Of a stretch of DNA of 64,000 nucleotides, positions 22,214-62,175 are shown piece after piece. The first letter of the stretch is position 1; every line of letters begins with the position of its first letter. The position numbers and the translations under genes were made by a program. This DNA is from Erysipelotrichaceae bacterium (lineage in GTDB: Bacteria > Bacillota_I > Bacilli_A > Erysipelotrichales > Erysipelotrichaceae): contig JAFRBQ010000015.1 in assembly GCA_017404785.1 (NCBI GenBank), positions 1-64,000 of the forward strand, in the 5' to 3' direction. The notes beneath the pieces are model-generated. The model saw only the letters and a list, made by a program, of their open reading frames with translations, did no database searches and had not been told where the DNA came from.

Positions 22214-22298
22214 TGGTCCCCAGAGTCGGGGTCGAACCGACATGGATTGCTCCACACGATTTTGAGTCGTGCGCGTCTGCCAATTCCGCCATCCGGGG
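22214..22298 (-). tRNA. tRNA-Leu (anticodon CAA)
   Basis: The minus strand reads CCCCGGA, then TGGCGGAATTGGCAGACGCG, an anticodon arm ACGAC-TCAAAA-TCGT with anticodon CAA, a long variable arm typical of leucine tRNA, the T arm GTCGG-TTCGACC-CCGAC, the acceptor strand TCTGGGG, and ACCA. The acceptor stem pairs over 7 bp with one G-T. CCA is encoded (22214-22216). It reads UUG codons. Confidence 0.93.
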
Positions 22299-47599: not shown

Positions 47600-48883
47600 A
47601 TGAAAAACGAAATAGTAAGATGCAAATGTGTTGATATGTCAGTCGATGGACACGGAATTGCCAGAGCAGGTGATCTCGTGATTTTTGTCAAAGGCATGAT
47701 AAAAGGTGAAGAAGCAGATGTCAAGATCATTTCCGAAAAGAAGAACTATTCCTTTGGCATTATTGATAAACTGATCGATCCATCACCCTACAGAATTGAA
47801 AGTGATTGTCCAATTTCATACAAATGTGGAGGCTGCGATTACCGCTATATCGATTACGATTATCAACTTCTTCTTAAAAAGGAAGTTCTCATAAATACTT
47901 TCAGAGATTTTGAAGTTAACGACATCATCGAAGATGATCATCCTAATCACTACCGGAATAAGGTTCAGATACCAGTAAGAGATGGCAAAATGGGTTTTTA
48001 CCGCAAATTTTCCAATGATATTGTGGAATTTGACGACTGTAAGATAGAATCCATTAAAGCCAATCAGATAATAAAAGATCTGAAGAGTTTGCTGATAGGG
48101 AAAAAGATCGATAAGTATTTCCGTCATATTCTGATCAAACATGCCCAGGGGACAGATGAGATCATGCTGGGATATATCGTCAATAACTTTGATCTGGATC
48201 TTAATGATATAAATGAATTCATAATAAACAAGTATCTAAATATCAGATCGATAATACTTAATCTGAATGATAGGGATACCAATGTCATTCTGGGCTATAA
48301 GGAGAAGCTTCTTTATGGAAGAGATTTTATCTATGACATATATGATGGCATTAAAGTAAAAATCTCTCTGAAATCCTTCTATCAGGTCAATTACGGACAG
48401 ATGCTGAAGCTTTACGCAAAGATCAGAGAATTGGCTGATCTTAAGGGTAATGAAACAATACTTGACCTATACTGTGGCATAGGAACCATTTCCCTGTATC
48501 TTGCCCGTTACGCCAGAAATGTAATAGGTGTAGAGATCGTTGATCAGGCTATCATAAATGCCAAGGATAATGCAAAGATCAATAACATAAATAATGTGTC
48601 TTTTATTTGTGCTGATGCTTCTAAGGGAATGGATGAATACATAAAAGACAAAGATATCGTTGTTGTAGATCCGCCAAGAAAAGGAATCAGTAAAGAACTC
48701 ATAGATACATTTATTAGACTGAAAACAGAAAAGATCATATATGTCTCATGTAATCCGGCAACTTTAAACAGAGATCTTCTCTTACTTAAAGATCACTATC
48801 ATATAAGTTCTATACAGCCTGTAGACATGTTTCCATATACGACACACGTCGAGACAGTAACATTGTTGTCAAGAAAATCGTAA
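47600..48883 (+). CDS. rlmD: 23S rRNA (uracil-5-)-methyltransferase, RlmD/RlmCD family, with TRAM domain
   Basis: A 427-residue SAM-dependent RNA methyltransferase. An N-terminal TRAM domain (about 1-55) is followed by the iron-sulfur cysteines CPISYKCGGCDY, the SAM motif LDLYCGIGTISLYLA, VVDPPRKGI and the catalytic cysteine in YVSCNPATL. The exact uridine targeted (1939 or 747-type) cannot be read. The ATG lies directly after a terminator with no ribosome binding site or obvious promoter, so its expression signal is unclear. A shorter paralogue is at 52870. Confidence 0.92.
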   Translation: MKNEIVRCKCVDMSVDGHGIARAGDLVIFVKGMIKGEEADVKIISEKKNYSFGIIDKLIDPSPYRIESDCPISYKCGGCDYRYIDYDYQLLLKKEVLINTFRDFEVNDIIEDDHPNHYRNKVQIPVRDGKMGFYRKFSNDIVEFDDCKIESIKANQIIKDLKSLLIGKKIDKYFRHILIKHAQGTDEIMLGYIVNNFDLDLNDINEFIINKYLNIRSIILNLNDRDTNVILGYKEKLLYGRDFIYDIYDGIKVKISLKSFYQVNYGQMLKLYAKIRELADLKGNETILDLYCGIGTISLYLARYARNVIGVEIVDQAIINAKDNAKINNINNVSFICADASKGMDEYIKDKDIVVVDPPRKGISKELIDTFIRLKTEKIIYVSCNPATLNRDLLLLKDHYHISSIQPVDMFPYTTHVETVTLLSRKS

Positions 48884-51381: not shown

Positions 51382-52761
51382 ATGAGAAAAGAAAGAAAAG
51401 GTTTGATAGAGCTGATCTTCATTGTTTCACTGGTACTGATCTTTTTGGTATTCGCCATAAGTGAGATCAAAACGAACAACTATAACAACGAAACACATAA
51501 AGCTGCCTTTTCCGGTTCAGCTCTTTTCTCAAATGAAGAAAATGAAAATGAAGGTGTAACTGTTAAGGCCATTCCACGAAGCAGTACCTGGGGCAAGATC
51601 TTTGACCTGTATGATGAAGGCCTTACCGAGAACAACTATCAGGCTTATACCTATGATTTTACTGTCTCTAATAACACCAAAGATGAACTGGATGATTTTA
51701 CATTCAAGCTGACATTCAGCAAGGATGTCTTCCTTGCATCGGCTTGGAATGGTGCTCTGGAAGTACATCAGACTGTCAATGGACAGGAAGTTGTTTCAAC
51801 AGTTCCAGATCTTCGAGAATTCAAACCTTCTGATCATCCGCTAGAAACTGTTACATTTGATGGTGAGAATTTCATCTATATGAAGGCAGGGGATTATTTT
51901 ATCTATATTCCTAGCTCGACAATGAATGCCATGGAGATCCCGATCGAACCATATGAAGGTACAACACCTGGTTTTATCATGTATATCCTGATAGGTGAGT
52001 CGATCGAAGATTCCGTACTTGATCTTGATTATTCATTCAACAGAGCGATCACAAGCGAACCGCTTTTCTGGGTCTCTGTTATCGGACTTGCGATCTGGCT
52101 GATAGCCCTGATCGTCTATTCGATCACTTCTGCACAGATCAAAATGTACAACGATCGTCATGAAAGAGACAACGAGATAATCAACGAATCGATCGAAACA
52201 TTTACCGGTTTCATCGATGCGAAGGACCCGTATACAAACGGTCACTCAAAACGTGTTGCGACATATACAAGACAGATCGCCAAGAAGATGGGTTATGAAG
52301 GTGAAGATCTGGATAATATCTATTACATTGCCTTGCTTCATGACTGTGGCAAGATCGGTGTTCCGGACAACATCCTTGGCAAGCCTGGCAAACTGACTGA
52401 TGAGGAATTCAAGGTCATCAAATCCCACACTGTACAGGGTGGTGAGATCCTTCATGCCTTCAAGAGTCTGGATCATGTGGAAGACGGTGCCCGTTTCCAT
52501 CATGAAAGATATGATGGAAAAGGCTATCCTGAAGGAAGATCCGGTGATGATATACCTCTGATCGCCCGTATGATCTGTGTTGCCGACTCATTTGATGCGA
52601 TGAATACAAACCGTGTCTACAGAAACAAGCTGAGCAAGGAAAAGATCATTGATGAGATCGAGACCAATAAGGGTCGTCAATTCGATCCTGAGATCGCTGA
52701 TATCATGCTGTCATTGATCCGATCAGGTGAAATTCCTATCGGTGATCAGCAAGCTCAATAA
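51382..52761 (+). CDS. Membrane HD-GYP domain protein, predicted cyclic-di-GMP phosphodiesterase
   Basis: A 459-residue sensor. A membrane helix (about 8-28) and a second (about 228-250) enclose an extracytoplasmic region of ~200 residues rich in beta strands (YTYDFTVSNNTKDELDDFTF ...), resembling a carbohydrate-binding-like sandwich. The cytosolic HD-GYP domain has HD at 320-321 in LLHDCGKIGVPD and HHERYDGKGYP at 373-383, both intact, so hydrolysis of c-di-GMP to GMP is likely. It opens the c-di-GMP island and is followed by a terminator. Confidence 0.92.
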   Translation: MRKERKGLIELIFIVSLVLIFLVFAISEIKTNNYNNETHKAAFSGSALFSNEENENEGVTVKAIPRSSTWGKIFDLYDEGLTENNYQAYTYDFTVSNNTKDELDDFTFKLTFSKDVFLASAWNGALEVHQTVNGQEVVSTVPDLREFKPSDHPLETVTFDGENFIYMKAGDYFIYIPSSTMNAMEIPIEPYEGTTPGFIMYILIGESIEDSVLDLDYSFNRAITSEPLFWVSVIGLAIWLIALIVYSITSAQIKMYNDRHERDNEIINESIETFTGFIDAKDPYTNGHSKRVATYTRQIAKKMGYEGEDLDNIYYIALLHDCGKIGVPDNILGKPGKLTDEEFKVIKSHTVQGGEILHAFKSLDHVEDGARFHHERYDGKGYPEGRSGDDIPLIARMICVADSFDAMNTNRVYRNKLSKEKIIDEIETNKGRQFDPEIADIMLSLIRSGEIPIGDQQAQ

Positions 52762-52869: not shown

Positions 52870-54003
52870 ATGAATAAATGTCCTGTAAGTGAATTCTGCG
52901 GAGGATGTCAGTTCCAGGGGATTGACTATGCTACGCAACTGGAGATCAAACAGAAAAAAGCGGAAGATCTGCTTAAGGATTTTCATAATGTGGAAAAGAT
53001 CATAGGTATGGAAGATCCTGATCATTACCGTAACAAGATCCAGATCAGTTTTGCCTGTGATGAACATAAAAATACGATCAGCGGTTACTATATTCCATCA
53101 TCACACATGATCGTTCCGGTAAATGAATGTCTGTTGTGTGATGAAAAGCTTAACGAGATCTATATCTCAGTAAGAAAGATCCTGAAGAAATACAGAGTAT
53201 CGGTATTTGATGAAAGAAATATGAAAGGCTGTATCCGTCATCTTCTGATCAGATCAACAAACCTCAACGAATACATGCTCGTATTGGTTACAGGAACATC
53301 TTCAATAATCAATCAGGATCAGATCGTAAAAGAGATCATCAAATATAATCCAGATATAAAGACCATTATTCAGAACGTAAACAATCGTTTTACATCCGCG
53401 ATTCTTTCAAACAGAAATAATATTCTTTATGGCAAAGGCTATATAACTGATGAATTATGCGGATTAAGATTTAAGATTTCAGCTAATTCCTTTTATCAGG
53501 TCAATAAAAGACAGACGGAGATCCTTTACAATACGGCTTTGGATCTTTGTGATCTAAAAGAAAATGATACAGTGATCGATGCCTATTGCGGTACAGGTAC
53601 GATCGGTATGGCTGCCAGCAGATATGTAAGAAAAGTCATTGGGGTAGAATCCAACGAATCTGCTGTCAAGGATGCATTGAACAACAAAAAGACAAATAAT
53701 ATTGAGAATATTGATTTCGTATTGGATGATGCCGGAAGATATATGGATAATCTGAGCAGCCATGATGCCAGAATAGATGTCGTAATAATGGATCCTCCAA
53801 GGGCAGGATCGAGCACCAAGTTCATGTCATCTATGGTCAGACTTTCTCCAAAAAGAGTAGTCTATATCTCTTGTAATCCGATTACCTTGGCTAATGATCT
53901 GAGGTACTTAAGCAGATACTACAAGATAAAAAAGATCCAGCCGGTCGATATGTTCTCATATACGCAACACATTGAAACGATAGTTCAACTTTCCAGAAGA
54001 TGA
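52870..54003 (+). CDS. 23S rRNA (uracil-5-)-methyltransferase family protein lacking the TRAM domain
   Basis: A 377-residue paralogue of the protein at 47600. It starts directly at the iron-sulfur cysteines (CPVSEFCGGCQF, C4, C10, C13), with no TRAM RNA-binding domain. The methyltransferase is complete: IDAYCGTGTIGMAASR, VIMDPPRAGSS and the catalytic cysteine in YISCNPITL. Gram-positive bacteria often have one dual enzyme for U747 and U1939; two paralogues here suggest divided targets. It lies within the c-di-GMP island but is unrelated in function. Confidence 0.88.
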   Translation: MNKCPVSEFCGGCQFQGIDYATQLEIKQKKAEDLLKDFHNVEKIIGMEDPDHYRNKIQISFACDEHKNTISGYYIPSSHMIVPVNECLLCDEKLNEIYISVRKILKKYRVSVFDERNMKGCIRHLLIRSTNLNEYMLVLVTGTSSIINQDQIVKEIIKYNPDIKTIIQNVNNRFTSAILSNRNNILYGKGYITDELCGLRFKISANSFYQVNKRQTEILYNTALDLCDLKENDTVIDAYCGTGTIGMAASRYVRKVIGVESNESAVKDALNNKKTNNIENIDFVLDDAGRYMDNLSSHDARIDVVIMDPPRAGSSTKFMSSMVRLSPKRVVYISCNPITLANDLRYLSRYYKIKKIQPVDMFSYTQHIETIVQLSRR

Positions 54004-54215: not shown

Positions 54216-57113
54216 ATGAATCTCAAGAAAACAGCAATCATTCTGTCACTTTCCTTGATCGCTTTTATTGGTATATTGATGCCTAATATAATAAAAGCTC
54301 AGGATCAGGATAGAAAAGTTGTCAAAGTAGGATGGTATGAATCTTCCTATAATAGTTTAGATGAGAATGGCTTCCGTTCAGGATATGCCTATGAATATCA
54401 GTTAAAACTATCAGCCTATAATGGCTGGACTTTTGAATATATCGAAGGCAGCTGGCCTGAGCTCTTACACAAACTGGAAACCGGAGAGATCGATCTGATG
54501 AGTGATATCTCCTATACACCTGAAAGAGCTGAAAAGATGCTTTACTCTTCGCTTCCTATGGGAACTGAGGAATACTATCTTTTTACTGCGCCTGAAAGAA
54601 GTGATATCTCTCCCTTTGATCGGTCAACCCTTAATGGCAAAAAGATCAGCGTCAATGAGGACAGTTATCAGCTGCAGCTTTTTCTTGAATGGATAAAGGA
54701 GAATGATATCGATTGCGAAGTATATGAAGTTTCATGCACTGAAGATGAATCACTGCAGATGCTTGAAAATGGAACATATGATGGATATGTGACAGTTGAT
54801 TCATTCATGGATACAAGCCGTGCTGCGCCGGTATACAAGATAGGTTCCTCCGATTACTATTTTGCAGTAAATATGAACAGACCTGATCTTTATGAAGAAC
54901 TTGAATATGCGATGAGTAAGATCCAGGATGAAAACCGTTTCTATAACAACGAAATGTATGAAAAATATATCAGAAGATCTGGAGCCAATGCTTTTCTGTC
55001 TCCTCAGGAAAAGGAATGGTTGAAATTCCATCCAACGATAAAAATCGGTTATCAGGATAACTATCTGGCATTCTGTGCCAGGAATCCCGAGACCGGTGAA
55101 CTTGATGGCGTCCTGAAGGAATATCTGGAATATGCTTCTGATGCAATTTATAATGTGCGTATCAATTTCAAACCGGTCTGTTATGCAACTGCCGAGGAAG
55201 CTTTAGATGCTTTGCATAACGGTGAAGTTGATTGTGTATTCCCGGCCAATTTCAGCGGCTATGAAGCTGAGTCATTAAATATCGTAATGACTCCTGCACT
55301 TATGAATACCGAGATGTATGCGGTGGTCAGAATGAGCGATCCCGGTATTTTTAACAAGGACAACAATGTCGTTGTTGCCGTTAATGAAGGAAACCCTAAC
55401 TATGAAGCTTTTCTGGTTAAACACTTCCCTGAATGGAAAAAGGTCTATTTCGCCAATTCTGAAGCCTGCCTTAAAGGTGTAGCCGAAGGCAAGGCGGATT
55501 GTCTTATCATAAGCAACTACCGCTATAACAATATCGCCAGAATGTGCAAGAAGTATCATCTTACGACTTTTTCTATCGGAGTGGAACTTGATTACTGCAT
55601 GGCTGTTACAAGAGGACGGGTCGAACTGTATTCCGTACTTGCCAAAGTCATCAGTATGGTTCCTGATGCTGCAGTACACGCTTCATTTTCACACTATATA
55701 ACTGAGGAATCACAGCTTACTTTCACCGATTTCATCATTGATAATCTCGGTGTTTTTATCGTAATTACTTCGATCATCATGCTTACGATACTGTTTCTGC
55801 TTTTCAGAAGTATCACTTCGGAAAGAAAGGCCAATTCCCTTATTCAGGCTACCGAGCTTGATGATCTGACTGGTTTATATAACCGTAAGTATTTCTTCCA
55901 GTATGCCTACCGTATGTATCGAGATCATCCGGATAAGCCTCTTGATGCGATCGTTCTGAATATCGAACATTTCCGTTCCGTCAACGAACTGCATGGCCGT
56001 GAACTGGGCGATGAGATCTTGAGAGGCCTTGGAATCGAGATTAAAAAGATCGCTGATGAAGAAAATGGCATTGCTGGAAGATTTGAAGCTGACCGTTTTG
56101 ATATCTATTGTAATCATAAAGAAGATTATGAAGCCATTTTTGACAGACTTCAGACAGTAGTTAACCAGCTGGCTTTTAATGCCAACGCAAGACTGCGTAT
56201 GGGTGTAATGCCTTGGCAATCAGGCATGGAACCGATCGAACTGTTTGACCGTGCCAGAACAGCCTGCAATATGGCAAGAGGAAACTATAAGAAACACCTC
56301 ATCATCTATGATGAAACTGTCAGCAAGCGCGATATCTTTGAACAGCGTTTGCTCAACGACCTGCGTCAGGCACTGGACAATGAAGAATTTGAAGTTTTCT
56401 ATCAGCCTAAATTCAATATTCAGAATGAACCGTTCAAACTCGTCAGTGCCGAGGCTCTTGTGCGCTGGCATCATCCGGACCTCGGTCTGATTGAACCTGG
56501 TGATTTCATTCCTTTATTCGAAAACAATGGGCAGATCACACTTCTGGATAAATATGTCTGGGCAAAAGCAGCGCGGATGATCGCTTGCTGGAAGGAAAAA
56601 TACGGCGTAACACTTTCAATATCTGTCAACCTCTCACGAGTTGATATCTTTGATCTGGGACTTGAAGAGACGCTTTACGATATCATGGAGACCAATAATC
56701 TCAATTATGACGATCTGAAACTTGAGATAACCGAATCGGCATATACCGAAAATGCCGACCAGGTGATCCAGGTCATTGGCAGACTTCGCAATAAAGGTTT
56801 CAAGGTTGAAATGGATGACTTTGGCAGCGGTTATTCTTCTTTGAACATGCTTTCATCAATGCCGATTGATGTCCTGAAGATGGACAGAGAATTCATCAGA
56901 AATATCGACCACGACCAAAGAGGTCAGCAGCTTGTTGAATTGATCATCGATATTGCCAAAAATCTGAAGATCCCGGTAATCGCTGAAGGTGTTGAAAGAG
57001 AGACCCAGATCCAGATCCTCAAGAAGATGGGCTGCGATATCGTTCAGGGCTTCTATTTCTCAAGACCTTTGCCGGTCGATGAATTTGAAAAAAGATTTCT
57101 TATAACAGAATAG
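54216..57113 (+). CDS. Double periplasmic-binding-domain sensor with degenerate GGDEF and intact EAL domains
   Basis: A 965-residue membrane receptor. Signal peptide (1-29), two SBP-family-3 ligand-binding domains (about 37-260 and 272-500), a membrane helix (about 510-532), GGDEF domain (545-690) and EAL domain (715-960). The GGDEF signature is replaced by EADRF at 624-628, so cyclase activity is not expected. EAL is intact: E746 in SAEALVRW, EMDDFGSGYSS and AEGVERE. Predicted role: ligand-controlled c-di-GMP phosphodiesterase, built like BvgS-type tandem flytrap sensors. It is 15 nt upstream of its cyclase counterpart. Confidence 0.92.
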   Translation: MNLKKTAIILSLSLIAFIGILMPNIIKAQDQDRKVVKVGWYESSYNSLDENGFRSGYAYEYQLKLSAYNGWTFEYIEGSWPELLHKLETGEIDLMSDISYTPERAEKMLYSSLPMGTEEYYLFTAPERSDISPFDRSTLNGKKISVNEDSYQLQLFLEWIKENDIDCEVYEVSCTEDESLQMLENGTYDGYVTVDSFMDTSRAAPVYKIGSSDYYFAVNMNRPDLYEELEYAMSKIQDENRFYNNEMYEKYIRRSGANAFLSPQEKEWLKFHPTIKIGYQDNYLAFCARNPETGELDGVLKEYLEYASDAIYNVRINFKPVCYATAEEALDALHNGEVDCVFPANFSGYEAESLNIVMTPALMNTEMYAVVRMSDPGIFNKDNNVVVAVNEGNPNYEAFLVKHFPEWKKVYFANSEACLKGVAEGKADCLIISNYRYNNIARMCKKYHLTTFSIGVELDYCMAVTRGRVELYSVLAKVISMVPDAAVHASFSHYITEESQLTFTDFIIDNLGVFIVITSIIMLTILFLLFRSITSERKANSLIQATELDDLTGLYNRKYFFQYAYRMYRDHPDKPLDAIVLNIEHFRSVNELHGRELGDEILRGLGIEIKKIADEENGIAGRFEADRFDIYCNHKEDYEAIFDRLQTVVNQLAFNANARLRMGVMPWQSGMEPIELFDRARTACNMARGNYKKHLIIYDETVSKRDIFEQRLLNDLRQALDNEEFEVFYQPKFNIQNEPFKLVSAEALVRWHHPDLGLIEPGDFIPLFENNGQITLLDKYVWAKAARMIACWKEKYGVTLSISVNLSRVDIFDLGLEETLYDIMETNNLNYDDLKLEITESAYTENADQVIQVIGRLRNKGFKVEMDDFGSGYSSLNMLSSMPIDVLKMDREFIRNIDHDQRGQQLVELIIDIAKNLKIPVIAEGVERETQIQILKKMGCDIVQGFYFSRPLPVDEFEKRFLITE

Positions 57114-57128
57114 AGGTTATTTTCTGTA

Positions 57129-59279
57129 ATGAATAGACTAATAAGATCAAAAATAATCAGACTTACCATCTTCTTTTTGACTGTTATGATCGTTACGGCA
57201 GCTTTTAATCCGATGATTTTAAAGGCCGATGATGATCACAAGGTTGTCAAAGTAGGCTGGCACGAAGAGCCTTATTTCATCGAGGATGATCTGGGTCGCT
57301 GGTCTGGCTATACCTATGAGTATCAGCGTAAGATCGCTGCCTATACCGGCTGGAAATTCGAGTATGTACATGGAAGTTTCTCTGAACTTCTGCAGATGCT
57401 CAAAGATGGACAGATCGATATGATGGGAAATATTTCATATACTGAAGAGCGTGCCAATGATCTTCTATATGCCTCATCACCAATGGGAACGGAATCATAT
57501 TATCTTCTTGTCTCAACAGATAATAAAGAGATCAGGCAGGAAGATTATTCAACTCTTAACGGCAAAAAAGTTGGTGTAGCCAAGGGATCCATACAGGAAG
57601 AAATTTTCAGACAGTGGGTCGATACCCATAATGTTTCACCAGTGATCCTTGAACTTACCTCTACCGAGGATGATTCTTTAATGATGCTGGGAAACAGACT
57701 GGATGCTTTTGTCACAGTCGATGTCTATGGCGATCTTGAAGAAACAGCTGCTGTATGGAAGATCGGTTCATCCGATTACTTTTTCGCATTGAACAAGGAA
57801 AGAAATGATCTGCTGATCGATCTTAACAATGCAATGACTTCCATCCTTGAAGAGAATGTCTATTTCAATGAACAGCTTCACCAGAAATATCTGATGAACA
57901 AGAAGACCATATTCTATCTGAACAACGAAGAAATTGAATGGTTGGATAAACATCCTGTCATCAGAGTCGGTTATCAGGACAATTATCTGGCTTTCTGTGC
58001 ACAGGATAAGGAAACCGGTGAATTGACCGGGGCCTTGAAAGATTATCTGGAATATATATCTCAGGGTTTTGAGAATGCGACGATCAGTTTTGAAACTGTA
58101 TGTTATCCATCAGCCAAAGAAGCGATCGAAGCTTTAAAAAATAATGAGATCGACTGTATGTTCCCGGCAAACTTCAGCGATTATGAAGCGGAGATGGAAG
58201 GGATCGTTCAGACTCCGGCATTCATGGCAAGTGAAATGGATGCGGTCGTAAGAGCTGCTGATCAGAAGGAGTTCATCAAACAGGAAGATATCACTGTTGC
58301 TGTAAACGAAGGCAATACCAATTACGAGATCTTTCTGAAAGATAATTTCCCTGGCTGGAAAGTAAGATATTTCAAAGATACACCGAAAGGACTTGAGGCT
58401 ATCGCCAATAATGAAGCTGATTGCATCATCATCAGTAACTATCGTTTCAGTAATATTGCCAAACAGTGCGAGAAACTGCATCTGACAACGATATATACTG
58501 GTGTAAACCTCGATTACTCGATCGCCATTAAAGAGGGCAATACTATACTTTATTCGATCCTGACCAAGGCTTCAGGATTGGTCCCCGACAGTGTCATGCA
58601 CTCAGCTCTTGCATATTATTCGACCGAAGATGCAAAAATGACATTTGTCGATTTCATCAAGGACAATCTTATTGAAGCACTTATTGCGATTATAATCATT
58701 ATTTCTCTGATCATGTTCCTGATAGTAAGAGATATCAGAGCAGAAAAAAAGATAATTGAAGAAGAAAAACTTGTCAATGTTTTGAATAAACAGGTATTCG
58801 TCGATGCTTTGACTTCTGTCAGAAATAAAGGAGCTTTCGCAAATTATGTTCAGGAGTTGCAAAACAGACTTGATAATGATGAAAAACTGAAATTTGCGAT
58901 CGGTGTTTTTGACTGCAATGATCTCAAGAATATCAATGACCGATACGGTCATGATAAGGGTGATATTTATCTGAAAACCGCCAGCCGTCTTATCTGCAGG
59001 ATATTTGAACATTCGCCGGTCTTCAGGATCGGTGGTGATGAATTTGCTGTTATCATGGAAAATGATGATTTCATAAATAGAGACAAACTTGTTGAAAAGT
59101 TCAAAGAAAGCGAAAAAGAGATCAATGCCAAAGCGGAAAATGGCTGGGAAGAAGTCCATGTTGCATTCGGTATAGCTGTAAATGACAAAGAAGATGATGA
59201 TACTGTTAACGATACTGCCAGACGCGCTGATAAGATCATGTACGAAAACAAGAAGATAGACAAAGAAAAAGGTGATTGA
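57129..59279 (+). CDS. Double periplasmic-binding-domain sensor diguanylate cyclase
   Basis: A 716-residue receptor. Signal peptide (1-30), two SBP-family-3 domains (about 38-258 and 270-500), membrane helix (about 515-535), a short coiled linker and one GGDEF domain with intact GGDEF at 635-639 in FRIGGDEFAVI, DCNDLKNINDRYGHDKGD before it. No RxxD inhibitory site is evident. The sensor half is closely similar to that of the upstream protein (compare KVVKVGW, YQDNYLAFCA, NYR-N-IA), so the pair arose by duplication. Predicted role: ligand-controlled c-di-GMP synthesis. Confidence 0.93.
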   Translation: MNRLIRSKIIRLTIFFLTVMIVTAAFNPMILKADDDHKVVKVGWHEEPYFIEDDLGRWSGYTYEYQRKIAAYTGWKFEYVHGSFSELLQMLKDGQIDMMGNISYTEERANDLLYASSPMGTESYYLLVSTDNKEIRQEDYSTLNGKKVGVAKGSIQEEIFRQWVDTHNVSPVILELTSTEDDSLMMLGNRLDAFVTVDVYGDLEETAAVWKIGSSDYFFALNKERNDLLIDLNNAMTSILEENVYFNEQLHQKYLMNKKTIFYLNNEEIEWLDKHPVIRVGYQDNYLAFCAQDKETGELTGALKDYLEYISQGFENATISFETVCYPSAKEAIEALKNNEIDCMFPANFSDYEAEMEGIVQTPAFMASEMDAVVRAADQKEFIKQEDITVAVNEGNTNYEIFLKDNFPGWKVRYFKDTPKGLEAIANNEADCIIISNYRFSNIAKQCEKLHLTTIYTGVNLDYSIAIKEGNTILYSILTKASGLVPDSVMHSALAYYSTEDAKMTFVDFIKDNLIEALIAIIIIISLIMFLIVRDIRAEKKIIEEEKLVNVLNKQVFVDALTSVRNKGAFANYVQELQNRLDNDEKLKFAIGVFDCNDLKNINDRYGHDKGDIYLKTASRLICRIFEHSPVFRIGGDEFAVIMENDDFINRDKLVEKFKESEKEINAKAENGWEEVHVAFGIAVNDKEDDDTVNDTARRADKIMYENKKIDKEKGD

Positions 59280-59281
59280 AG

Positions 59282-60955
59282 ATGAAGAAAGCGCAATATA
59301 CGGCCAAAGAAATGAATGAGCTTCTGAAGAATATGTCTGGCATGTACGATCTGGCAAGAGTTGTCGATCCTATTGAATGTCGAATCATCAGAATAAATGA
59401 TGATGGCACGGTAAACATGAATCAGAAGTGCTATGGCATCTGGAACGCCGGAACCAAGTGCAGTCACTGTTCCAGTGCTGTTGCCTGCAAGACCAGCTGT
59501 CATCAGGAAAAATCCGAATACTTTGATAATAAAGTATTCCATATTCAATCCAATCCTGTAACTCTGACTTTACCGGATGGCGAAGCCTATGAGGCAGTCG
59601 TTGAACTGGTAAATATCGATGATGATGTAAGCGATCATTCTTCAATAAACGACAGGGCAGATGAAAACATCGACTACAAGGCAGCCCGTTATCAGCTGGT
59701 CCACGATGAAATGACCAAACTGCTTAATCCCGGACCATTCTATGAAATGTCCCGTCAATTGATCGTTGATAATCCTGAAACTTCCTGGATTATGATCAGC
59801 GGCGATATCATGAACTTCCGTCTGGTAAATACACTGTTTGGCGAACAGAAAGGTAATGAACTGCTTGTATCTACAGCTCAGGCATTAAATAAGATCGCTT
59901 CCTCGAGCAAAGGACTTTGCGGAAGACTGGGCGGAGATCACTTCGCCTTGCTTATAAGACAGGACGACTACAATGAAGAGTCACTGTTGGATATTCAGAA
60001 GGAGCTTTCTGCACAGTTCAACTGTGGTATCTATTCATACATCATTCATTTTGGCGTATACAGGATAAGCGATTCATCGCTTCCTATCTCTGTAATGTGT
60101 GGAAGAGCCAATTCGGCACTCAAGACTATCAAGGAAAGCCTTATTGAGACTGTTGCTTACTTCGACAGCGAGATGCAGCATCGCGCTTTGTTTGAACAGG
60201 AGATCATCAGCGGCTTTGCCAAAGCTATAGAAGAAGAACAGTTCAGGATGTATCTGCAGCCTTTATCCGATAATGAAGGTCATGTTTTCGGTGCTGAAGC
60301 ATTGGCCAGATGGGTTAGACCAGATGGTTCTATGATCATGCCAGGGGATTTCATCGAGATCCTGGAACAAGCCAATCTAATCCATGAACTTGATGCCTAT
60401 ATCTGGGAATGTGCTGCAAAACAGCTGTCTTTGTGGAAAAACAGCAGATACAGAGATTTTTTCATTTCGGTAAATATGTCAGCCAAAGACTTTTTCAGTA
60501 TGGATGTCTATGATGTACTTACAAAACTCGTTGATAAATATCATATTGAACCTGAAAAACTGAGGCTTGAGATAACTGAGACATGTCTTCTTGAAGAACC
60601 TAGAGAAAGTGATAAGATCATCACCCGTCTGAAAGATAAAGGTTTCCTGGTAGAGATCGATGATTTCGGCAAAGGCTTTTCATCTATATCCATGCTTAAA
60701 CAGATCCATGCGGATGTGCTCAAGGTCGATATGTCTCTTCTGCAGGAGATCAACAGCAAGTCCCGCAGCAAGATCATTCTCAAATCGATAATCAATATGG
60801 CCTACGAGTTAGGTATGGATGTCATAACTGAGGGCGTTGAAACAAAAGATGAGCTTGATGAGCTCATTTCCATGGGTTGCAACCATTTCCAGGGTTTCTA
60901 TATCTCAAGACCACTGCCGATAACTGATTTTGAAAGTCGGTTTTTAATACAGTAG
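59282..60955 (+). CDS. Cytosolic GGDEF-EAL protein with a cysteine-rich N-terminal sensor domain
   Basis: A 557-residue soluble protein. Residues 1-115 resemble a PAS-like sensor with six cysteines (C33, C50, C60, C63, C69, C73) in CYGIWNAGTKCSHC and CKTSC, suggesting metal, iron-sulfur or redox sensing. The GGDEF domain carries GGDHF at 217-221, probably a poor cyclase. The EAL domain has E339 in GAEALARW, EIDDFGKGFSS and TEGVET, so phosphodiesterase activity is likely. ATG 59282 overlaps the previous stop region and follows AAGGTG; it completes the three-gene operon. Confidence 0.9.
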   Translation: MKKAQYTAKEMNELLKNMSGMYDLARVVDPIECRIIRINDDGTVNMNQKCYGIWNAGTKCSHCSSAVACKTSCHQEKSEYFDNKVFHIQSNPVTLTLPDGEAYEAVVELVNIDDDVSDHSSINDRADENIDYKAARYQLVHDEMTKLLNPGPFYEMSRQLIVDNPETSWIMISGDIMNFRLVNTLFGEQKGNELLVSTAQALNKIASSSKGLCGRLGGDHFALLIRQDDYNEESLLDIQKELSAQFNCGIYSYIIHFGVYRISDSSLPISVMCGRANSALKTIKESLIETVAYFDSEMQHRALFEQEIISGFAKAIEEEQFRMYLQPLSDNEGHVFGAEALARWVRPDGSMIMPGDFIEILEQANLIHELDAYIWECAAKQLSLWKNSRYRDFFISVNMSAKDFFSMDVYDVLTKLVDKYHIEPEKLRLEITETCLLEEPRESDKIITRLKDKGFLVEIDDFGKGFSSISMLKQIHADVLKVDMSLLQEINSKSRSKIILKSIINMAYELGMDVITEGVETKDELDELISMGCNHFQGFYISRPLPITDFESRFLIQ

Positions 60956-61011: not shown

Positions 61012-62175
61012 GTGAATAATTTTTTTATACATTATACAGAAGCCAATATTGTATGTATCATTATCTTCCTGATCCTGCTTGTGCATGATCTTTTAGGCAT
61101 CGACAGACAGGAAAAGCAGATCAAATACGATAATGCATTGATTTCTTTTATTTTTTATTTTGCCGTTGATTCCTTATGGTCGGCTCTGGTATCCAATACC
61201 ATTAAACCTACACGTTTTCTGGTCGTTCTTGATACGTTCCTTCTGTATCTTGGCATGGTGTTCATCACTTATTTCTGGCTGGAATATGCACTGTCTGTTG
61301 AACAATACGAGAAAAGAAACGATCCGCGCTTCAGATTTCTGTTAATGACACCGTTCATCATTTCCACTCTGATCCTGATAATAACTTATTTTGTCAATCC
61401 TGGTTTTCTGATCAACGATGCATTCGAGGTTCAGGATGGATTTAATTATTTCCTTGTAACAGCTCCATATATAAACCTGGCTGCAGTCCTTTATTATTCA
61501 GTCAGAAAAGCCATCAGCGAGGAAAATCCGGTCGAGAAACGCAAATTCCTTCTTATCGGTCTGTTTCCGCTCATGGTAGTAATAGGAGGTCTGATTGAGA
61601 CATTTTTCTTCCCATATGAACCTTTCTTTGCCTACAGTTCCACGATCTTGATGCTGGTATTCTTCATCCAGATGATCCAAAGACAGATTTCTGCCGACCC
61701 ATTGACCGGTTTGAACAACCGTGGTCAACTTTTACGCTATACCTCGCAGAAATCCAATATGCGCAAGGATAAAAGGCTCACATATGTTGTAATGATCGAT
61801 ATAAATGACTTTAAATCTATAAATGATACTTATGGTCATGCCCAGGGCGATAAAGCTCTGATCATTCTGGCAGATTCCTTCAAGAAGGTCATCAATCATC
61901 ATAATTTCCCGGTATTCCTGGCCCGCTATGGCGGCGATGAGTTCATCATGATCGTTCATCCGACCAGCGAATCGGAACTTCTTCCATTGATCGATGACAT
62001 CAGAAGCGAACTGAGAAAACAGTGCATAGAAAATAATATCGGTTTCATCTTTACAGTAGGCATCGGTTATGATCAGCTTAAAGAAGAACCGGATACTTTC
62101 CAGAGATGTCTGCAAAGAGCTGACAAGAAACTCTATCTGAACAAGAGACAGGCCAAACAGGAGCTGTATTCCTGA
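61012..62175 (+). CDS. Polytopic membrane diguanylate cyclase
   Basis: A 387-residue protein. The N-terminal half has about seven hydrophobic segments (residues 10-225), a sensor of the 7TM type. The C-terminal GGDEF domain is intact, with DINDFKSINDTYGHAQGD and RYGGDEF (GGDEF 307-311). Translation starts at GTG 61012 with AGAGGA 5 nt upstream. It lies 56 nt after the preceding gene and ends at a terminator, closing the c-di-GMP island. Confidence 0.9.
   Translation: MNNFFIHYTEANIVCIIIFLILLVHDLLGIDRQEKQIKYDNALISFIFYFAVDSLWSALVSNTIKPTRFLVVLDTFLLYLGMVFITYFWLEYALSVEQYEKRNDPRFRFLLMTPFIISTLILIITYFVNPGFLINDAFEVQDGFNYFLVTAPYINLAAVLYYSVRKAISEENPVEKRKFLLIGLFPLMVVIGGLIETFFFPYEPFFAYSSTILMLVFFIQMIQRQISADPLTGLNNRGQLLRYTSQKSNMRKDKRLTYVVMIDINDFKSINDTYGHAQGDKALIILADSFKKVINHHNFPVFLARYGGDEFIMIVHPTSESELLPLIDDIRSELRKQCIENNIGFIFTVGIGYDQLKEEPDTFQRCLQRADKKLYLNKRQAKQELYS

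Follow-up and report, generated by a model that had tools for sequence, protein, structure and literature searches.

The stretch of DNA analyzed here, referred to as the window, comprises 64,000 nucleotides of contig C7 from an incomplete metagenome-assembled genome (MAG; 1.31 Mb, 76% complete) of an Erysipelotrichaceae bacterium. Two adjacent genes within it, named A and B, had been placed within 54216-59279 by the initial annotation, and the open reading frames (ORFs) bear out this placement, with 15 bp separating the two. Together with their neighbors, all of which are encoded on the same strand, they make up the following features:

51382..52761, plus strand: HD-GYP-type gene (ORF, Pfam).
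54216..57113, plus strand: gene A, 965 aa (ORF, Pfam, catalytic residues); the sensor half consists of a signal/first transmembrane segment (TM1), a tandem SBP_bac_3-type sensor with domains S1 (residues ~30-255) and S2 (~256-500), and a second transmembrane segment (TM2), and the output half of a degenerate GGDEF domain (EADRF, residues ~548-688) and an EAL domain (714-951).
57129..59279, plus strand: gene B, 716 aa (ORF, Pfam, BLAST switch point, GGDEF tree); a homologous tandem sensor and TM2 (residues 1 to ~545), then an intact GGDEF domain of the dCache-HAMP-cyclase type (residues ~552-716).
58762..58784, plus strand: approximate position of the fusion within B, at codons ~545-552 (BLAST ranges, junction alignment).
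59282..60955, plus strand: gene C, a GGDHF-EAL protein (ORF, Pfam), whose ortholog also lies behind A in the closest relative, G016.
61012..62175, plus strand: gene D, an N-terminal membrane region and an intact GGDEF domain (ORF, Pfam; weak HisKA_7TM match).

Pfam matches to SBP_bac_3, GGDEF, and EAL are found in A and to SBP_bac_3 and GGDEF in B, with the SBP_bac_3 match falling on sensor domain 1, and in both proteins two consecutive SBP-fold domains are followed by a transmembrane segment and the output, which is the layout of a tandem Venus-flytrap receptor. The ATG of C lies 2 bp past the stop codon of B, and purine-rich, ribosome-binding-like sequences precede the starts in the run of A, B, and C. 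This tight spacing and these sequences fit with a single transcript, so that A and B are probably co-transcribed and B and C probably share a transcript as well. Genes C and D and the HD-GYP gene, none of which was included in the initial annotation, surround the pair and make it part of a wider c-di-GMP cluster, in a genome that is rich in such enzymes (18 GGDEF and 7 EAL matches). No c-di-GMP riboswitch was found near A or B in the window using Rfam, the sole Rfam match of the window being a tRNA gene (22217-22298, minus strand), and no PilZ effectors were found in the window genome, which at 76% completeness does not imply their absence. Promoter-like matches in the window are fewer than in shuffled sequences and terminator-like matches fall mostly within genes, and both are hence uninformative. 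Two RumA/RlmC-like methyltransferase genes, named by eye, lie within ~6 kb (47600-48883 and 52870-54003), and a homolog of the latter is also found close to A in genome G029 (L035).

The catalytic residues point to different outputs for the two proteins. In A, the first metal-site Asp is an Asn and EADRF, within GRFEADRF, replaces the GGDEF motif; each of the five A-clade proteins has the same GRFEADRF, indicating that the degenerate state is old and has been retained. As the GG(D/E)EF active-site motif is missing, A is not classed as a cyclase. Its EAL domain scores 228 bits against a Pfam cut-off of 31.3, the EAL signature (EAL, N, E, DDFG, K, EGVE) is invariant in A orthologs, and A is thus predicted as a likely EAL-type c-di-GMP phosphodiesterase. 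Activation of an EAL domain by a degenerate, GTP-binding GGDEF domain of the same protein has precedent (reviewed in PMC10333796), and the dead GGDEF of A would probably regulate the EAL domain of A. In B, neither the GGDEF motif nor the first metal-site Asp is altered (FDCN...RIGGDEF), both are kept in all eight B orthologs, and B is likely a GGDEF diguanylate cyclase. The canonical RxxD inhibitory I-site, which is common and not essential, is absent from B, where the residues before RIGGDEF are FEHSPVF. The residues and Pfam matches therefore agree with the initial annotation, which had assigned EADRF and an intact EAL domain to A and an intact GGDEF domain only to B, and opposite c-di-GMP outputs are likely.

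The same annotation had described the sensors of A and B as near-identical, a description that does not hold. The two proteins are 46% identical over 605 aa (526 bits, E=2e-179, far above chance), with 48% identity in sensor domain 1 and 53% in domain 2, and the ortholog of either gene in a congener is closer to it (68-72%) than A is to B. The motifs quoted as shared (KVVKVGW, SGY-YEYQ, ISYT-ERA, and YQDNYLAFCA) do occur in both genes. All A and B sensors keep four cysteines in domain 2 (C287, C340, C429, and C444 in A, window codons 55074, 55233, 55500, and 55545; C290, C343, C432, and C447 in B), two of which are kept in 21 of 21 aligned homologs, and a disulfide or metal site in this extracytoplasmic domain is possible.

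How the two genes arose can be read from trees of homologs collected across congeners, the phylum, and Clostridia-labelled genomes. The sensor tree places the A clade (all with a degenerate GGDEF and an EAL domain) and the B clade (all with GGDEF) as sisters with 98-100% support. The GGDEF tree disagrees with it, in that the GGDEF domains of A and B are not sisters: those of B fall in one marked clade (100/99), far from those of A, together with the GGDEF domains of two dCache_1-HAMP cyclases, one encoded in the window genome (contig C15) and one in G840. BLAST of B gives a corresponding picture, with A matching to ~residue 541 and showing weak GGDEF similarity, and the dCache cyclases matching at 57-59% identity from residue 549-552 to the end, such that the similarity switches at ~residues 545-552, the end of the TM2/signalling helix common to A and B. 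The BLAST switch and the GGDEF tree together identify B, on sequence evidence, as a chimera of an A-like sensor and an unrelated cyclase GGDEF domain of the dCache-HAMP type. The initial annotation had proposed duplication followed by an output swap and had named a phylogeny of sensor versus output domains as a check; the two trees conflict, and an exchange of outputs after duplication is well supported.

The exchange is old, earlier than the species of this genus and than those Clostridia-labelled genomes in which B is present, and A-B is thus not a fresh tandem duplicate. Recent tandem duplication was also rejected directly, as the log-likelihood falls by 262 when the A and B of the window are constrained to be monophyletic (p-AU 8e-35). 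That B derives from A, having lost the EAL domain and restored EADRF to GGDEF, is ruled out by the position of the GGDEF domain of B in a different clade. In one genome, G840, an A-type gene lies 38 bp upstream of a dCache-HAMP cyclase of the same GGDEF clade as B, and it is plausible that this single case retains the arrangement that preceded the fusion. An ancestor resembling this one locus may have had the sensor copied onto the cyclase domain of its neighbor, giving the A-B tandem. The window genome holds a second cyclase/phosphodiesterase pair on contig C15 (L142:2523-6381), in which a dCache-HAMP-GGDEF gene overlaps a gene for a single SBP domain with a degenerate GGDEF and an EAL domain; the GGDEF domain of the former is the closest relative of that of B found in the window genome.

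Further-out homologs of the sensor carry a degenerate GGDEF with EAL, hybrid histidine kinases, GGDEF, or GGDEF-REC-GGDEF as outputs, the last (L088:8143-11250) in an unusual order. At least six output changes are seen across the 25 tips of the sensor tree, indicating that this sensor switches partners often. The linker, measured from the sensor end to the DxLT of the GGDEF domain, is 46 residues in all five A proteins, 53 in all eight B proteins (exactly one heptad more), and 49 in four further homologs of the EAL type; a second GGDEF fusion (L038, L088) has 67, exactly three heptads above A. Coiled-coil register is known to control GGDEF domains linked by coiled coils (PMC12805367), and the heptad fit seen in these sequences is exact, although based on two fusions only.

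The distribution of the two genes has to be read with the caveat that the genomes compared are incomplete MAGs in which contigs may be misbinned. Only the window genome (G000) and its congener G014 were seen to have A and B in tandem. G029 has both genes on different contigs, with a D homolog directly 3' of A; G016 (IF2 98% identical) has A and C with B missing between them; A is found alone in G496; and G032 and MAGs with a Clostridia or Lachnospiraceae label have B without an adjoining A. As each gene occurs without the other in several genomes, neither appears to need the other. In UBA4263, a B homolog adjoins a broken EAL gene just upstream (L029:4026-4752), which looks to have been broken by a frameshift or an assembly error. 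At the thresholds used, relatives were present in 3 genomes of an even sample of 392 from the phylum and in 4 of an even sample of 391 from the class of G437, making the family patchy. The tree of A agrees with that of IF2 where the two are comparable (G000 with G016), and the Clostridia-side B genes nest among those of the window genome's genus, which suggests transfer of B between classes. At 98% IF2 identity to the window genome, the A sensor of G016 is only ~70% identical (L036 versus 54216-57113), and this receptor is either evolving very fast or has been exchanged. G014 additionally carries two identical copies of another gene for a sensor with a degenerate GGDEF and an EAL domain, with the same neighbors on two contigs (L039:7849-10794 and L040:8573-11518), a result of recent duplication or an assembly artefact.

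The sensor pockets bear on what the two receptors may recognize. The S1 anchors (the TxER Arg, a preceding Ser, a Glu on the following strand, and an S/TxQ motif) show little or no variation across A, B, and the outgroups, and by alignment their counterparts in LAO/AncQR-type proteins and in CdgH (PMC5431781) contact the ligand. The carboxylate-binding Arg with a Ser/Thr five residues earlier, the residue pair of amino-acid-binding SBP_bac_3 domains, is present in both proteins (S99/R104 in A, S103/R108 in B) and invariant in all rows examined. S1 of both A and B should still bind a putative amino-acid-like ligand. Loop 1 of the S1 pocket, at positions that align with ligand side-chain contacts in related proteins, reads WY(E/D)S(S/T)YN in A, near the outgroup W(Y/F)(E/D)S(A/S)F, whereas most B have WH(E/D)(A/E)P(Y/F). 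Beside the anchor, the position preceding (I/V)S holds Asp in A and the outgroups but Asn in the majority of B, and the earliest-branching B (G029) is intermediate. The S2 loop GYQDNYLAFCA, in contrast, is nearly identical in the A and B clades. Given that the S1 loop has diverged in B and the S2 loop is common to both, specificity has probably shifted in S1 of B and stayed unchanged in S2. An AlphaFold model of B (mean pLDDT 79.5) shows tandem flytrap domains, with BvgS, the SBD1-SBD2 tandem of GlnPQ, EvgS, and CdgH as its best Foldseek matches (4q0c, 9ilw, and 5gzs among the tandems), and domain 2 of B aligns to VFT2 of BvgS over 230 residues (Z 23.3, rmsd 3.1). The model of A is too poor in S1 (pLDDT mostly under 50 to low 50s), and the pocket comparison is therefore based on alignment.

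Pairing of a cyclase gene with a phosphodiesterase gene is seen with dosC and dosP in E. coli, where DosC and DosP have unrelated sensor domains. A cyclase and a phosphodiesterase that answer one kind of stimulus have been described for DosP (PMC4263535) and, with light as the stimulus, for SesA/SesB/SesC of Thermosynechococcus (PMC8846402, PMC5871770). A and B differ from both systems in that their sensors are paralogs placed on outputs of separate origin. CdgH of Vibrio cholerae (PDB 5gzs) resembles B in having two periplasmic PBPb domains, a transmembrane segment, and GGDEF; its domain 1 binds Arg/Lys/Orn, and the domain-1 Arg and strand Glu have apparent counterparts in B. However, its sensor is only ~16% identical to that of B in the structural match, and it has no described paralogous phosphodiesterase partner (PMC5431781). 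RmcA of Pseudomonas aeruginosa (SBP_bac_3, PAS, GGDEF, EAL) senses arginine through SBP_bac_3 (PMC8846402) and, like A, places an SBP_bac_3 sensor on a phosphodiesterase, and its PBP domain (7ejg) is among the structure matches of the B sensor; unlike A, with tandem SBP domains and no PAS detected, it has four PAS domains and, as far as described, one SBP domain. BvgS and EvgS (PDB 4q0c, 9ilw) come first among the profile and structure matches to the tandem sensor, and closer homologs of the A/B sensor are also found on hybrid kinases (L091, L092), whereas A and B have c-di-GMP enzymes as outputs. In NspS-MbaA of V. cholerae, two closely related ligands push c-di-GMP in opposite ways (PMC8079147), much as in a related-cue reading of A-B, but through a single bifunctional enzyme and a separate binding protein instead of two receptors. 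Literature searches, covering mainly papers open without subscription, turned up no description of paralogous tandem SBP sensors on a paired cyclase and phosphodiesterase. The parts are thus of known kinds (CdgH, RmcA, BvgS/EvgS), and what is new is the documented capture of a sensor giving a paired phosphodiesterase and cyclase.

The observed anatomy, sisterhood of the sensors, separate origin of the GGDEF domain of B, linker lengths, and conservation of catalytic residues lead, on balance, to a somewhat favored reading in which one ancestral tandem flytrap sensor gave rise to A, a phosphodiesterase, and B, a chimeric cyclase, that compare related extracellular cues. The activities, the ligands, the sign of regulation, and the joint action of A and B are the inferred part of this reading. 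A would be a ligand-regulated c-di-GMP phosphodiesterase, and in B an A-like sensor with its transmembrane helices would have been fused, where the signalling helix ends, to the GGDEF domain of a dCache-HAMP cyclase that was possibly encoded next to it. Probably co-transcribed and in the same membrane, the two would set c-di-GMP by the balance of receptor-phosphodiesterase and receptor-cyclase. The occurrence of A and B apart in several genomes, and the lack of B in G016, count against such a paired explanation. A more specific form, in which a duplicate sensor captured the neighboring cyclase in coiled-coil register and the pair reads the ratio of two related domain-1 ligands alongside a common domain-2 cue, is put forward only tentatively and seems doubtful.

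The initial annotation had offered two alternatives, in that one ligand might act at different concentrations or two related ligands might oppose each other. A strict push-pull in which one ligand raises and lowers c-di-GMP by concentration, through differing affinities of A and B, would be in keeping with the homologous sensors, the same S1 anchors and S2 loop, and the probable co-transcription. The changed loop 1 and the Asp to Asn change beside the anchor in most B speak against it, as does the frequent separation of the genes, and the probable shift in S1 lowers the same-ligand reading and favors related ligands. A single shared ligand is not supported and strict push-pull is rather improbable; the opposition of two related ligands fits the sequences better, and the most likely input is cues that are related but differ, weighed against one another. 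It is also conceivable, and would be unlikely, that A and B are independent receptors of unrelated cues that act separately, their adjacency a leftover of duplication and of c-di-GMP gene clustering. Movement of B between lineages, the genomes with either gene alone, the difference at about half of the sensor positions, and the A-type genes that elsewhere adjoin other cyclases are all in line with independence, whereas the shared S1 anchors and S2 loop, the tight spacing, and the probable co-transcription are not. Mixed A-B dimers, with a single pair of sensors controlling the two enzymes, could draw on homologous sensors and transmembrane helices, on linkers that are constant within each clade and exactly one heptad apart, and on the dimers formed by the tandem-flytrap receptors CdgH and BvgS (PMC5431781). 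Where A and B occur apart, however, each must act as a homodimer, and cyclases need GGDEF homodimers, making mixed dimers very improbable.

To our knowledge, most c-di-GMP receptors have no known ligand, and how networks of dozens of cyclases and phosphodiesterases gain specificity is unsettled. A-B is a case of receptor rewiring and not a new kind of system, and its history is readable, as one can make out the sensor, the output domain that received it, the point where they were joined, and how long the linkers are. It thus offers a ready system for testing how a sensor keeps control over a new output, to which the homologs of the same sensor on hybrid kinases add, and is also suited to asking if gut Firmicutes compare related cues by means of paralogous receptors whose outputs are opposite.
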